This document shows positions 1 through 11,595 of a stretch of DNA of 64,000 nt, piece by piece. A model generated the notes under the pieces. The model worked only from the letters and a program-made list of their open reading frames with translations. It made no database searches and was not told the DNA's origin. This DNA is from Pseudomonas sp. B21-015 (GTDB taxonomy: Bacteria > Pseudomonadota > Gammaproteobacteria > Pseudomonadales > Pseudomonadaceae), in contig NZ_CP087196.1 of assembly GCF_024749285.1 (NCBI RefSeq), forward strand, positions 4,216,001-4,280,000, given 5' to 3'. The position numbers were made by a program, and so were the translations under genes. Positions within the stretch are counted from its first letter, which is position 1; each line of letters begins with the position of its first letter.

Positions 1-303
1 CCTTGGTCTTATACCTAAGATAGGCACGCCATTATTTACTGCCGTATTGATCTCCCACTCCATCCAATCGCTGTAAGCGGTATACATACCTGCCACGACA
101 ATAAAAACATCTGAATCCAGTATTTTTCTTTTTAGAACCGTTTTTATGTAATTCGCATTCTCAGAATTTATCGGCTGATCTACGGTAACTTCTTCGTACG
201 AAGCAATTAGCCCATCCTCTTTATTAAGAAGACTCTTCAATGACACCAATTGGTCATTATAATCCCAGCGATGACTAATAAACACACTATAGTTTTTGTT
301 CAT
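1..303 (-). CDS. TIR-like (MTH538/DUF1863, ThsB-type) protein, 3' part outside window
   Basis: The gene begins at an ATG at 303 and runs off the left edge, leaving about 101 codons. The translation opens MNKNYSVFISHRWDYND, then shows DVFIVVAGMYTAYSDW followed by MEWEINTAV and GVPILGI. This is the pattern of the MTH538 TIR-like family that includes ThsB of Thoeris: an FISH-type first strand, an LAG-like strand, and a YSxW..WE segment whose Glu matches the catalytic Glu of TIR NADase/cyclase folds. The start overlaps the stop of the upstream ASK1-like gene as ATGA, so the two are almost certainly translated together. The TIR-like protein is probably the effector or nucleotide-signal producer and the partner the sensor; that division of roles is inference. 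No ThsA-like gene is visible, but anything left of base 1 is unseen. Base composition is clearly more AT-rich than the genes after 1.9 kb. Confidence 0.85.
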   Translation of the reverse strand, partial: MNKNYSVFISHRWDYNDQLVSLKSLLNKEDGLIASYEEVTVDQPINSENANYIKTVLKRKILDSDVFIVVAGMYTAYSDWMEWEINTAVNNGVPILGIRPR

Positions 304-1559
304 TCTTGATTAGCTACCATGACAGAGACACTGTTATTGTTAAACGTATCTAGATCCCACGAGCCGTCGGATAACGACTTAAATTCTTCTGCATATAGCT
401 GATGACGAGGATCCCCTAAATACTCAGCTGCTCTTGCAGCACTTGCATAAACCCATTTCCGATCACTTCGCTCATCAAAATTATCAGAATCAATAATTTT
501 ATCAGTGATCTCTGCTATGGCTTCAAAAGTTTTCTTCGCTGAATATTCGTAAACATAAGAATCTCTATCTTGAGCACCTGCTGCCTTTAGAGCGCCGGAC
601 TTCTCAAGAAAACAAATAGCTAAATTCTCACCATTATAGTAGTCTTTTTTTATCGTAAATCCACGATTATAAAATGCTATCGCCTTATCTAAAAACTCAA
701 CCTTATTAGTGTCACGCCATATATTTTTATGAATTGCCCCAGCCAGACCTGTTGTTTCCGGATCATTACTTTCATCTGGATTTAGACTCGACAAAACAAC
801 CATAGCATTCATACATGCCATCGTAATACTTGGCAATTCGGACTTATACGTACAGAGTGTTAACCGTTGAATCAAGTAATCATCACCCGGCCTAATTTCT
901 AGCGCAGTTTGATATAGATCTTTTGCCTCACTAAATTTTTTATTCTTAAGCGCAATTTCTGCACTTCCAAAAATATAGCCCCACTCGCGTTCAGCCTCAA
1001 TAGATTCCTCAACCAACCTTTCAACTTCCTCACTTGTTAAATGAGGCACATTCAGGTTAGGCATATAGGTATAAACTGGACTATCTACCACATTTGTAGC
1101 CAATGTAGCTTTTAGCAGCTCCGTCAATCTAAATGTTATCTTTCTGGCTTCTGAACAGCCTATATCCTCACCTAAATGTTCATACTGTATTGTAGCTACA
1201 TGATTTAGATCGAAGTGTAAAACCCCAGATTTTTCGGACATTATTATGGTTGTATTTTTCTTAAGCGCATGCCTCACGCCCAATTCATAAATAGCATTCG
1301 CATTACTGGTTGAGATATCAGCGACAACAATATCAGCTGAAAGCAACAACCTGTACATTTCTTTATCGATAACGCCCGAATGGTTGACTTCATCAGCTCT
1401 TATGCATTTGATCCCCAAGCCTTCCACTGCCGGCTTTATTATTTCATTATACGTAGCATCTAAATTTAACAACTTCCCTGTTTTGGGGTCGGTTTTCTTA
1501 CCAAACCCCATAACCACAAAGCAAACTTTTTCCTTTGCATCATTATTTTCATTTTCCAT
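300..1559 (-). CDS. ASK1/MAP3K TRAF-binding-region-like protein (deoxyribosyltransferase-like domain + TPR)
   Basis: A 419-residue protein. Residues about 10-115 form a nucleoside-deoxyribosyltransferase-like Rossmann domain: CFVVMGFG, then ADIVVADIS, then YELGVRHAL followed by a hydrophobic TTIIM strand. The same order occurs in the N-terminal domain of the animal kinase ASK1 (ADIAVVEMS, YHLGVRESF). Residues about 185-400 look like TPR helices, with a segment (AGAIHKNIWRDTN, then AIAFYNRGF) that lines up with the ASK1 TRAF-binding region (GRIYKDMF, then WFKKAF). No kinase domain and no membrane segment are seen. Bacterial members of the 'MAP3K TRAFs-binding domain' family are known; their function is not established. 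The stop overlaps the start of the TIR-like gene (ATGA). A role as sensor or regulator of the TIR-like partner in phage defence is inferred. Confidence 0.8.
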   Translation of the reverse strand: MENENNDAKEKVCFVVMGFGKKTDPKTGKLLNLDATYNEIIKPAVEGLGIKCIRADEVNHSGVIDKEMYRLLLSADIVVADISTSNANAIYELGVRHALKKNTTIIMSEKSGVLHFDLNHVATIQYEHLGEDIGCSEARKITFRLTELLKATLATNVVDSPVYTYMPNLNVPHLTSEEVERLVEESIEAEREWGYIFGSAEIALKNKKFSEAKDLYQTALEIRPGDDYLIQRLTLCTYKSELPSITMACMNAMVVLSSLNPDESNDPETTGLAGAIHKNIWRDTNKVEFLDKAIAFYNRGFTIKKDYYNGENLAICFLEKSGALKAAGAQDRDSYVYEYSAKKTFEAIAEITDKIIDSDNFDERSDRKWVYASAARAAEYLGDPRHQLYAEEFKSLSDGSWDLDTFNNNSVSVMVANQE

Positions 1560-1648
1560 TAGAAAACTCTTTTTATACAGTGGTGGGATGCTAGATGCGA
1601 CGCAGGTAATTATTTTTTACATTACAAGCCACCTGAAGACACAGCCGT

Positions 1649-1654
1649 ATTATA
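1649..1654 (-). promoter_or_regulatory. Candidate -10 box of the ASK1-like/TIR-like operon
   Basis: A perfect TATAAT reads on the minus strand about 90 bases upstream of the ATG at 1559, in AT-rich DNA. No clear TTGACA lies 16-18 bases further upstream, so this is only a candidate. The rest of 1560-1776 shows no gene. Confidence 0.35.
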
Positions 1655-1776
1655 TTCAGGTAACTTATAAAACATTGTGTAACTTCCCTTTAGTACCAGC
1701 CATTCGCGGCACAGCATAGATGGGCGGATGTTAAAATGCCAGCACTACGAGTCGTGTCGCGTGGTTATAGATTCAT

Positions 1777-3964: not shown

Positions 3965-4288
3965 ATGAAACGCCAAACCCTTCTCGGCATCGCTTTCTCG
4001 GTTTTTGCAGTTAACGCTTTCGCCGCGTCTTCTACTCACCCGGTCGTCGCTGAAGGCGGCTCGGATCGCCTGATTGAAAGCCGTGTGGCTGAAGGTGGTT
4101 CGGATCGTCTGATCGAGAATCGCGTCGCTGAAGGCGGTTCGGATCGTCTGATCGAGAATCGCGTCGCTGAAGGCGGTTCGGATCGTCTGATCGAGAATCG
4201 CGTCGCTGAAGGCGGTTCGGATCGTCTGATCGAGAATCGCGTCGCTGAAGGCGGTTCGGATCGTCTGATCGAAAACCGCGCAGCATGA
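3965..4288 (+). CDS. Secreted repeat peptide, six VAEGGSDRLIENR units
   Basis: A 107-residue protein with a clear Sec signal peptide (MKRQTLLGIAFSVFAVNAFA, cleavage after AFA), a short linker, then six tandem copies of a 13-residue unit VAEGGSDRLI(E)(N/S)R and a final AA. The mature part is hydrophilic, with no Cys. Similar short VAEGGSDR-repeat proteins are frequent in Pseudomonas; I recall some labelled 'phage infection protein', which says little about function. The gene is monocistronic, with an ATG preceded by GGAG (3953-3956) and a strong terminator 33 bases after the stop. Repeat number probably varies between strains. The antisense strand is also open, but only as a by-product of the repeat. 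Confidence 0.85.
   Translation: MKRQTLLGIAFSVFAVNAFAASSTHPVVAEGGSDRLIESRVAEGGSDRLIENRVAEGGSDRLIENRVAEGGSDRLIENRVAEGGSDRLIENRVAEGGSDRLIENRAA
4046..4279 (+). repeat. Six 39-bp coding tandem repeats
   Basis: Units start at 4046, 4085, 4124, 4163, 4202 and 4241. Units 3 to 5 are essentially identical at DNA level. Units 1, 2 and 6 differ by a few third-position changes. Each encodes one 13-residue protein repeat without spacers, so this is a coding minisatellite and not a CRISPR array. Confidence 0.95.
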
Positions 4289-11091: not shown

Positions 11092-11595
11092 ATGAGCCGG
11101 CTTGAGCTACTCACCAAATGGAATCGCATGATCGTGCGGTTGCAGATCGAACACGAAATCAGTGCCCGGGATTTCGAGAAATTCAGCTGGAAACTGGGCA
11201 TCCCCTGCGTGGTGCTGTCAGCGATTGTCAGCGCCAGCGTCTTTGGTTCAATCAGTGACTCATCGCCCCCCTGGCTCCAGTATGCAGCGGGTATCCTTTC
11301 GCTTCTGACCCTGGTGTTGAGCTCGGTTCAGACCTTCCTGAACTTTGACACCCGGGCTGCCGGGCACAAAGACACCGCCGAGAAACTCGGTGCGATATCT
11401 CGTGAGATTCAGGACGAGATCGCCAGCGGCAAGGACGAGGCGATCCTGGGCCCAATCGTTTTGGACATCCGCAAGCGCATTGATTCGATCCTTCTTGATG
11501 CCCCGACCTTGCCCAAGTCAACGATAAGGAAGCTGGGGGATACTCGCGTCCACCCAGAAGCTCCATCAGAGGAGCATGACACCGTCCCGGCTTGA
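11092..11595 (+). CDS. SLATT-domain two-helix membrane protein (putative defence effector)
   Basis: A 167-residue protein with a cytosolic N-terminal helix (LLTKWNRMIVRLQIEHEISARDF), two transmembrane segments (LGIPCVVLSAIVSASVFGSI, then WLQYAAGILSLLTLVLSSV) and a cytosolic region opening FLNFDTRAAGHKDTAEKLG. This is the organisation of the SLATT family (SMODS- and SLOG-associating 2TM effector), predicted to form membrane pores as the killing arm of nucleotide-activated conflict systems. No nucleotidyltransferase, SLOG or TIR partner lies beside it. A good AAAGGA box precedes the ATG. The next gene, an adenosine-specific kinase, follows after 48 bases and may be co-transcribed. Confidence 0.75.
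   Translation: MSRLELLTKWNRMIVRLQIEHEISARDFEKFSWKLGIPCVVLSAIVSASVFGSISDSSPPWLQYAAGILSLLTLVLSSVQTFLNFDTRAAGHKDTAEKLGAISREIQDEIASGKDEAILGPIVLDIRKRIDSILLDAPTLPKSTIRKLGDTRVHPEAPSEEHDTVPA

Follow-up and report, generated by a model that had tools for sequence, protein, structure and literature searches.

A TIR gene overlapping an ASK1-like DRHyd-TPR-S gene in Pseudomonas sp. B21-015: a candidate Thoeris-like module

A pair of overlapping genes was found at the left edge of a 64,000-nucleotide stretch of the Pseudomonas sp. B21-015 genome (hereafter the window; G000:C1:4216001-4280000, within the single 6.59-Mb contig NZ_CP087196.1). The first gene encodes a 419-residue protein that joins an N-terminal deoxyribosyltransferase/DNPH1-like (DRHyd) domain to a TPR-S domain related to the regulatory core of the animal kinase ASK1 (MAP3K5), and the second encodes a 134-residue TIR protein of the ThsB type. 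The order of the two genes, their domains and their conserved glutamates recur together in distant bacteria, and the two proteins have diverged in step. The pair is probably an antiviral signalling system of an already predicted kind. Quite possibly, and this is the interpretation we tentatively prefer, it is a mobile two-gene Thoeris-like immune module, in which a signal made by the TIR protein would be bound by the TPR-S domain and would act through DRHyd as the effector.

Domains and conserved residues of the two proteins

Both open reading frames were confirmed on the minus strand at the positions claimed by an original prediction, which had been made from the letters of the window alone and had described two genes overlapping by ATGA. 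The overlap is present and may couple the translation of the two genes. Adding 16 kb leftwards (L002, G000:C1:4200001-4218000) completed the TIR gene, at L002:15899-16303 (minus strand), with the last 33 codons and the stop lying left of the window.

The TIR protein matches PF08937 (ThsB_TIR) above the curated cut-off, with the TIR as its sole Pfam domain, and it also matches the ThsB models of PADLOC (E-values in Table 1); PF08937 is matched by 32 of the 33 aligned TIRs. In NCBIfam, the only match was to a type III Thoeris-related model and fell below the cut-off (14.9 vs 220 bits). The YSDWMEWE segment contains Glu84, which is invariant in two alignments (33/33 TIRs in A2, 43/43 in A4) and which, by profile match, aligns with a glutamate of the solved ThsB1 chain 9b7d that is E85 by residue count of the chain. 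PMC10022894 describes E85 of ThsB as a catalytic residue. These alignments support the assignment of the protein as a ThsB-type TIR with a catalytic-type glutamate in place, in agreement with the original prediction.

Sequence comparison places the N-terminal 165 residues of the partner in the deoxyribosyltransferase/DRHyd superfamily. A profile built from 28 diverse members, when aligned by hhalign with 13 PF05014-type templates (a set that includes four weak or borderline family matches), reached a probability of 95.2, with eight column shuffles at 2.4 or less; against nine stricter templates the probability was 68.7, with 20 shuffles at 1.2 or less. A narrow comparison using only two deoxyribosyltransferase-type templates gave 2.5, and PF05014 alone matches the protein weakly (E 0.11). 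The nearest relatives of the domain in the PDB are Rcl/DNPH1 proteins (E 2.2e-4), followed by a deoxyribosyltransferase at only E 0.66, and ASK1 was absent from the 14 distinct PDB sequences matched by the N-terminal profile at E up to 10. The deoxyribosyltransferase-like domain proposed earlier is thus recovered, and an unrelated N-terminal fold, which would have undone the proposal, is not what the matches point to. Glu92, in the YELG motif, aligns with the corresponding glutamate of Rcl/DNPH1 and is invariant in all aligned bacterial members (31/31, 58/58 and 28/28 in three sets). Furthermore, the PADLOC model PDLC00733, labelled 'Effector' and 'TIR' and which we take to be a CBASS (cyclic-oligonucleotide-based antiphage signalling system) effector model, matches the 419-residue protein at E 2.3e-8 over residues 30-130, in the DRHyd region; it is matched by 58/58 relatives, the matched region having been determined for this protein only. 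An hhalign comparison of the DRHyd and TIR profiles gave no signal (probability 0.3-0.4). The Pfam DRHyd-ASK model PF20309, which has 36 positions, found nothing in the genome up to E 10, and in 9 of 14 control genomes it gave matches below the cut-off.

The second half of the protein carries the TPR-S domain. PF20308 (TPR-S) matches at E 3e-19, with 69.9 bits against a cut-off of 27.6, and PF13281 (MAP3K_TRAF_bd) at E 3.5e-7 over 64 residues, with 30.0 bits against 24.1; among relatives scanned at E up to 1, the two models match 58/58 and 57/58 proteins, respectively. A protein search returned 4489 relatives (E up to 1e-3) of 7996 candidates scored, the nearest named one among the 120 matches listed being a Pseudomonas sp. 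CCI3.2 protein with 78% identity, and NCBI names such proteins 'TRAFs-binding domain-containing'. When a profile of the TPR-S core (A6, 27 loci) was run against 177,635 distinct PDB sequences, human ASK1 was the top match (5ulm E 0.0033, 8qgy E 0.011; 17 matches at E up to 10); with a full-length profile, ASK1 was not among the 60 of 67 PDB matches listed. In direct hhalign comparisons, for which the ASK1 sequence was taken from the PDB letters, the TPR-S region aligned over 88 columns with a probability of 91.7 and a score of 55.9, and 50/50 residue shuffles scored lower (maximum 21.0). The motif region from ADIVVADIS to YELGVRHAL, both motifs being present in the 419-residue protein, aligned over 33 columns with a probability of 53.4 and a score of 31.0, which 0/100 shuffles reached (maximum 20.3).

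ASK1 therefore shares with the bacterial protein the order in which a DRHyd-like motif precedes a TPR-S-like region, and by these profile comparisons the relation is real. ASK1 differs in having a kinase, a PH and other domains (PMC10972558), whereas no Pfam kinase match was found in the 419-residue protein at E up to 1; the kinase-free ASK1 core described in the original prediction is accordingly borne out. The two proteins also differ at the motif, where ASK1 has His for Glu92, Gln for Asn86 and Ser for Asn88, and because Glu92 is His there, the enzyme site looks lost in animal ASK1. Four TPR-S residues (E268, Y308, G310 and N312) do not vary within the bacterial set; in ASK1, G310 and N312 are conserved, E268 is replaced by Asp and Y308 by Gln. 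This active-site contrast, a Glu92 constant in all aligned bacterial proteins and a His in the solved ASK1 chain, is a concrete lead. Components of the ASK signalosome were reportedly derived from bacterial conflict systems by Burroughs and Aravind in 2020 (J Bacteriol). PMC8195603 states the same derivation, citing Burroughs and Aravind 2020 and other work. Given that statement, the Pfam families PF20308 and PF13281 and the NCBI names, the idea that the ASK core came from bacteria is not new. The locus resembles the TPR-S 'ASK-like' bacterial conflict systems of PF20308 in having a TPR-S domain over the cut-off, a DRHyd-type domain upstream of it and a TIR gene beside it.

Recurrence and co-divergence of the couple

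To place the pair among its relatives, 40 TPR-S loci were collected and reduced to 34 non-redundant loci (<95% identity). They comprise all five genome-contig loci, all three viral loci, 15 of 76 matching plasmid records, the locus of this genome, the regions of ten other genomes of the genus over the cut-off, and all eight matching genomes of a 398-genome phylum sample; L071 and L072, with no open reading frame matching the profile, and second copies in G231 and G240 were left out. Loci with at least 36.6% identity to the 419-residue protein were classed as close (n=27) and the others as distant (n=7), L069 being classed as distant by its profile score despite 37.3% identity over a shorter match. 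TIR genes were called with our own hidden Markov model, Pfam scans and some NCBI annotation (in L076, the NCBI annotation alone).

Of the 27 close loci, which range from Pseudomonadota to Lactobacillales, 24 have a TIR gene no more than 400 bp from the TPR-S gene, and the couple occurs in hosts such as Erwinia, Huaxiibacter, Klebsiella, Aeromonas, Acinetobacter, Psychrobacter, Vibrio, Neorhizobium, Lactiplantibacillus and Pediococcus. The nearest TIR gene and the TPR-S gene share a strand in 23 of the 24 loci, and in 21 they overlap or are at most 60 bp apart. Among the distant loci, three of the seven (L062, L066 and L069) have a TIR gene within 400 bp by a broader profile, L062 also by Pfam. 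The possibility that the pair is unique to this genome, or that its genes are neighbours only here, was rejected, as the couple recurs in many genomes and plasmids and at a known defence hotspot. Moreover, the divergence of the TIR proteins follows that of their TPR-S partners: across 17 of the 24 pairs, with one TIR chosen per locus, r was 0.76, a value reached by 0 of 5000 permutations; in 12 thinned pairs, r was 0.59 and was reached by 1 of 5000.

Within the genus, the TPR-S gene is sporadic, being over the cut-off in 11 of 398 genomes. Plasmid records with a match number 76, and genes for Tn3-family transposases and recombinases were found near the pairs. On the L074 plasmid, an IS26 transposase gene directly follows a TPR-S gene that is slightly shortened, and the annotation shows no TIR; on the L008 plasmid, insertion sequences lie between and around its two TIR genes. 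The gene following TPR-S on the Rhizobium plasmid L014 (L014:5309-6346) is not a TIR by Pfam and has only a weak HEAT match; by eye, its N-terminus seems to resemble DUF4062. DUF4062 proteins are described as TIR-like NADases in PMC13174449.

In the distant loci, the gene beside DRHyd-TPR-S encodes a TPR-S domain with a patatin phospholipase domain (L067, L068 and L069) or with an alpha/beta-hydrolase domain (L065, over the cut-off, and L066, just below it), so that all five such neighbours scanned carry their own TPR-S plus an enzyme domain.

Proposed mechanism and alternative explanations

In the module as we propose it, infection would lead the TIR protein, through Glu84, to turn nicotinamide adenine dinucleotide (NAD+) into an ADP-ribose-type signal, which the TPR-S half of the 419-residue partner would bind. 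Binding would switch on the N-terminal DRHyd domain (Glu92), and the active domain would cut the glycosidic bond of NAD+ or of another nucleotide, thereby stopping the infected cell. Many relatives also carry a SLATT membrane protein or an additional TIR, which may perhaps provide further output; similarly, the Thoeris locus of E. coli CFT073 contains two TIRs together with a membrane effector (PMC11204291). These steps, from the chemistry and the ligand to the sequence of events, are what we infer from the two proteins. TPR-S is read as the signal receiver because the domain moves between unrelated enzymes, and this portability, together with the 'Effector' matches of PDLC00733, leads us to regard the TIR as the signal maker and DRHyd as the effector.

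The comparison with Thoeris is close on the TIR side, where both have a ThsB-family protein with a catalytic-type glutamate. The partner, with the ASK1-like protein standing in place of ThsA, similarly combines what may be a nucleotide-cleaving domain with what may be a sensor. It differs from Thoeris in being DRHyd-TPR-S, and no SIR2, SLOG or macro match was found in either neighbouring protein at E up to 1.

Several observations weigh against this module. Three close loci (L014, L063 and L078) lack a TIR gene within 400 bp, their TIR-type open reading frames lying 1.3-2.1 kb off, and four of the seven distant loci have none within 400 bp even with the broader profile. Since 0 of 20 viral-contig loci found by the TIR profile have a TPR-S gene in the surrounding DNA examined, the TIR family is not tied to a TPR-S partner. 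Co-divergence is joint inheritance, not contact, and joint inheritance alone would give the observed r. Finally, the second catalytic Asp of Rcl/DNPH1, presumably D69, aligns with an invariant methionine (M68) in DRHyd; the 419-residue protein departs from Rcl/DNPH1 in this residue and in its extra TPR-S half, and because of M68, DRHyd may bind instead of cutting. Catalysis by the domain is plausible but not certain.

In the direction of the original prediction, the DRHyd-TPR-S protein would be an infection sensor or scaffold that, when triggered, licenses the TIR, which would then kill by NAD+ hydrolysis. The same couple and overlap would be expected, Pfam finds the TIR alone in the 134-residue protein, and ASK1 itself is regulated via its TPR-containing central region (PMC10972558). 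The fusion of TPR-S elsewhere to effector-type enzymes (patatin, alpha/beta hydrolase) fits a receiver better, however, and an invariant Glu92, which is His in ASK1, would be needless in a pure scaffold; we therefore consider a licensing role rather unlikely.

Alternatively, DRHyd might make the signal, with the TIR, the P-loop ATPase encoded convergently to the pair, or SLATT proteins as outputs, here possibly the product of window 11092-11595. SLATT relatives, searched with the SLATT_3 and SLATT_1 protein of L057, occur at most 4.7 kb from the pair in 10 of the 27 close loci (an annotated DUF4231 gene in L014 escaped this search), and two of the three distant loci that pair DRHyd-TPR-S with patatin-TPR-S have no TIR gene within 400 bp. 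Such an arrangement is nonetheless improbable here: no SLATT relative was found in L002 beside this pair, the SLATT-like gene of the window matches other families (SLATT_4/5) than the L057 protein (SLATT_3/1), and the ATPase recurs without TPR-S and looks like a separate cassette.

A role outside immunity, as a nucleotide-salvage or stress-regulation pair or as mere cargo of mobile DNA, was also considered. The nearest solved relatives of the N-terminal domain are nucleotide N-hydrolases, and the literature found, which has partial coverage with most subscription journals outside it, held no phage test and no other recognisable test of a TPR-S/TIR pair. Against such a role stand the ThsB-type TIR and the sporadic presence in the genus, and an immune setting is suggested by the low-GC island that holds the pair, the plasmids, the transposase and recombinase genes nearby and the position of the G071 locus at the defence hotspot cDHS1; a non-immune function is thus very unlikely.

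The Thoeris-like module also has a bolder form, which we regard as decidedly improbable. The pair would be a Thoeris-like system in its own right, with TPR-S as an ADP-ribose-type receptor and DRHyd as a new signal-gated glycosidase; animals would have inherited both together, the enzyme would have been lost with the change of Glu92 to His, and the fold would survive as the regulatory core of ASK1, which may still be nucleotide-tuned. Should the preferred Thoeris-like module function as suggested here, its two genes would offer a compact system for finding out what TPR-S binds, and hence for asking whether the regulatory core of an animal stress kinase started out as the receptor of an NAD+ signal induced by phages.

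Genomic setting and neighbouring genes

The coordinates of the pair and its surroundings are collected in Table 1. The genes lie in an island with a GC content of 0.40 over 4.7 kb, compared with a window mean of 0.55 and with 57-64% in 500-base steps from 11000 to 13000 of L002. Its content is the TIR gene, the TPR-S gene and, outside the window, the convergent gene of a DRHyd-like P-loop ATPase. No tRNA genes were found in L002, and no Rfam matches at the gathering threshold around the pair; promoter and terminator scans gave roughly the numbers of sites seen in shuffles (4 vs a mean of 6.7, and 2 vs a mean of 1.7), and the only flanking repeats were short, chance-like pairs. An empty-site comparison gave no clean junction, the right flank being common to four relatives and the left flank not being found beside it in the 12-13.5 kb examined. 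The gap between the ATPase and TIR genes held no convincing remnant of a SLATT or second TIR gene, nearly all matches there being ends of known genes and the others marginal.

Table 1. Features of the gene pair and its surroundings (L002, leftward extension overlapping the window)
Feature	Location	Strand	Evidence
ThsB-type TIR gene, 5' part (101/134 codons)	window 1..303	-	PF08937 E 3.7e-16; PADLOC ThsB E 7.2e-18
Codon of TIR Glu84	window 52..54	-	alignment to ThsB1 chain 9b7d; invariance
ATGA overlap, TPR-S gene stop / TIR gene start	window 300..303	-	sequence
DRHyd-TPR-S (ASK1-like) gene, 419 aa	window 300..1559 = L002:16300-17559	-	open reading frame, Pfam and protein search
Core of the TPR-S domain (PF20308), with homology to part of the central regulatory region of ASK1	window 612..935	-	Pfam, PDB profile, hhalign
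DRHyd (deoxyribosyltransferase/DNPH1-like) domain, about residues 10-165	window 1065..1532	-	hhalign, PDB profile match, PADLOC model
Codon of Glu92 (YELG motif)	window 1284..1286	-	aligned with Rcl/DNPH1 YELG Glu; His in ASK1
Low-GC island, window part	window 1..1700 (whole island L002 12970-17700)		ends set by GC content only
P-loop ATPase, Sll1717 family, 806 aa	L002:13037-15457	+	NCBIfam E 2.2e-95

The ATPase has a deoxyribosyltransferase-like N-terminus by a Pfam match below the cut-off (E 0.0076). It was found in 5 of 199 genomes of the genus. Convergent to the pair here, it lies directly upstream of TPR-S in G071, and in G143 it is at a contig end, the TPR-S gene of G143 starting another contig. 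No TPR-S or TIR was found in the surroundings examined of the ATPase in G049, in G061 and in the three plasmids opened (196 records match), and the DNA homology to G049 and G061 ends at the end of the ATPase gene, the G061 frame having one internal stop. The ATPase was therefore rejected as an obligatory third gene, and its recurrence without TPR-S is the reason for treating it as a separate cassette. A scan of viral contigs with the ATPase gave no match by that scan, yet the viral TPR-S locus L083 has a 783-residue relative. The ATPase is a candidate single-gene defence system.

The complete set of G071 is bounded by pheT, ihfA, merR and tRNA-Pro, which also neighbour the ATPase in G143. This combination is given as the left boundary of the core defence hotspot cDHS1 in PMC10250203.

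Relatives of the DRHyd-TPR-S protein also occur in phages, where 42 records match, 35 of them streptococcal or staphylococcal. None covers more than 80% of the protein, and the ten places listed are all in the N-terminal domain. The two genes opened (L151:2995-3654 and L152:2989-3648) encode 219 residues and are oriented against their upstream neighbours. Such DRHyd-like genes could serve prophage defence or counter-defence.

A further recurrent gene set was seen near the TPR-S loci L055-L059, L063, L010 and L076 (by eye also L066 and L070). It includes a TIR protein of 460-490 residues and a DNA-glycosylase/lyase-like protein and, in several loci, QueC-like and ribokinase-like proteins; the TIR protein of the L057 set has a TIR_2 match and weak matches to tRNA-guanine transglycosylase models. 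The set looks like a separate TIR/7-deazaguanine-type module.

Within the window, the SLATT-like gene at 11092-11595 (plus strand) encodes 167 residues, with 31.8 bits against a cut-off of 27 for SLATT_4, and lies about 9.5 kb from the pair, outside the low-GC island. Additionally, a 107-residue open reading frame at window 3965-4288 (plus strand) consists of near-identical AEGGSDRLIENRV-type repeats, and a similar repeat protein is encoded at L061:10906-11385.

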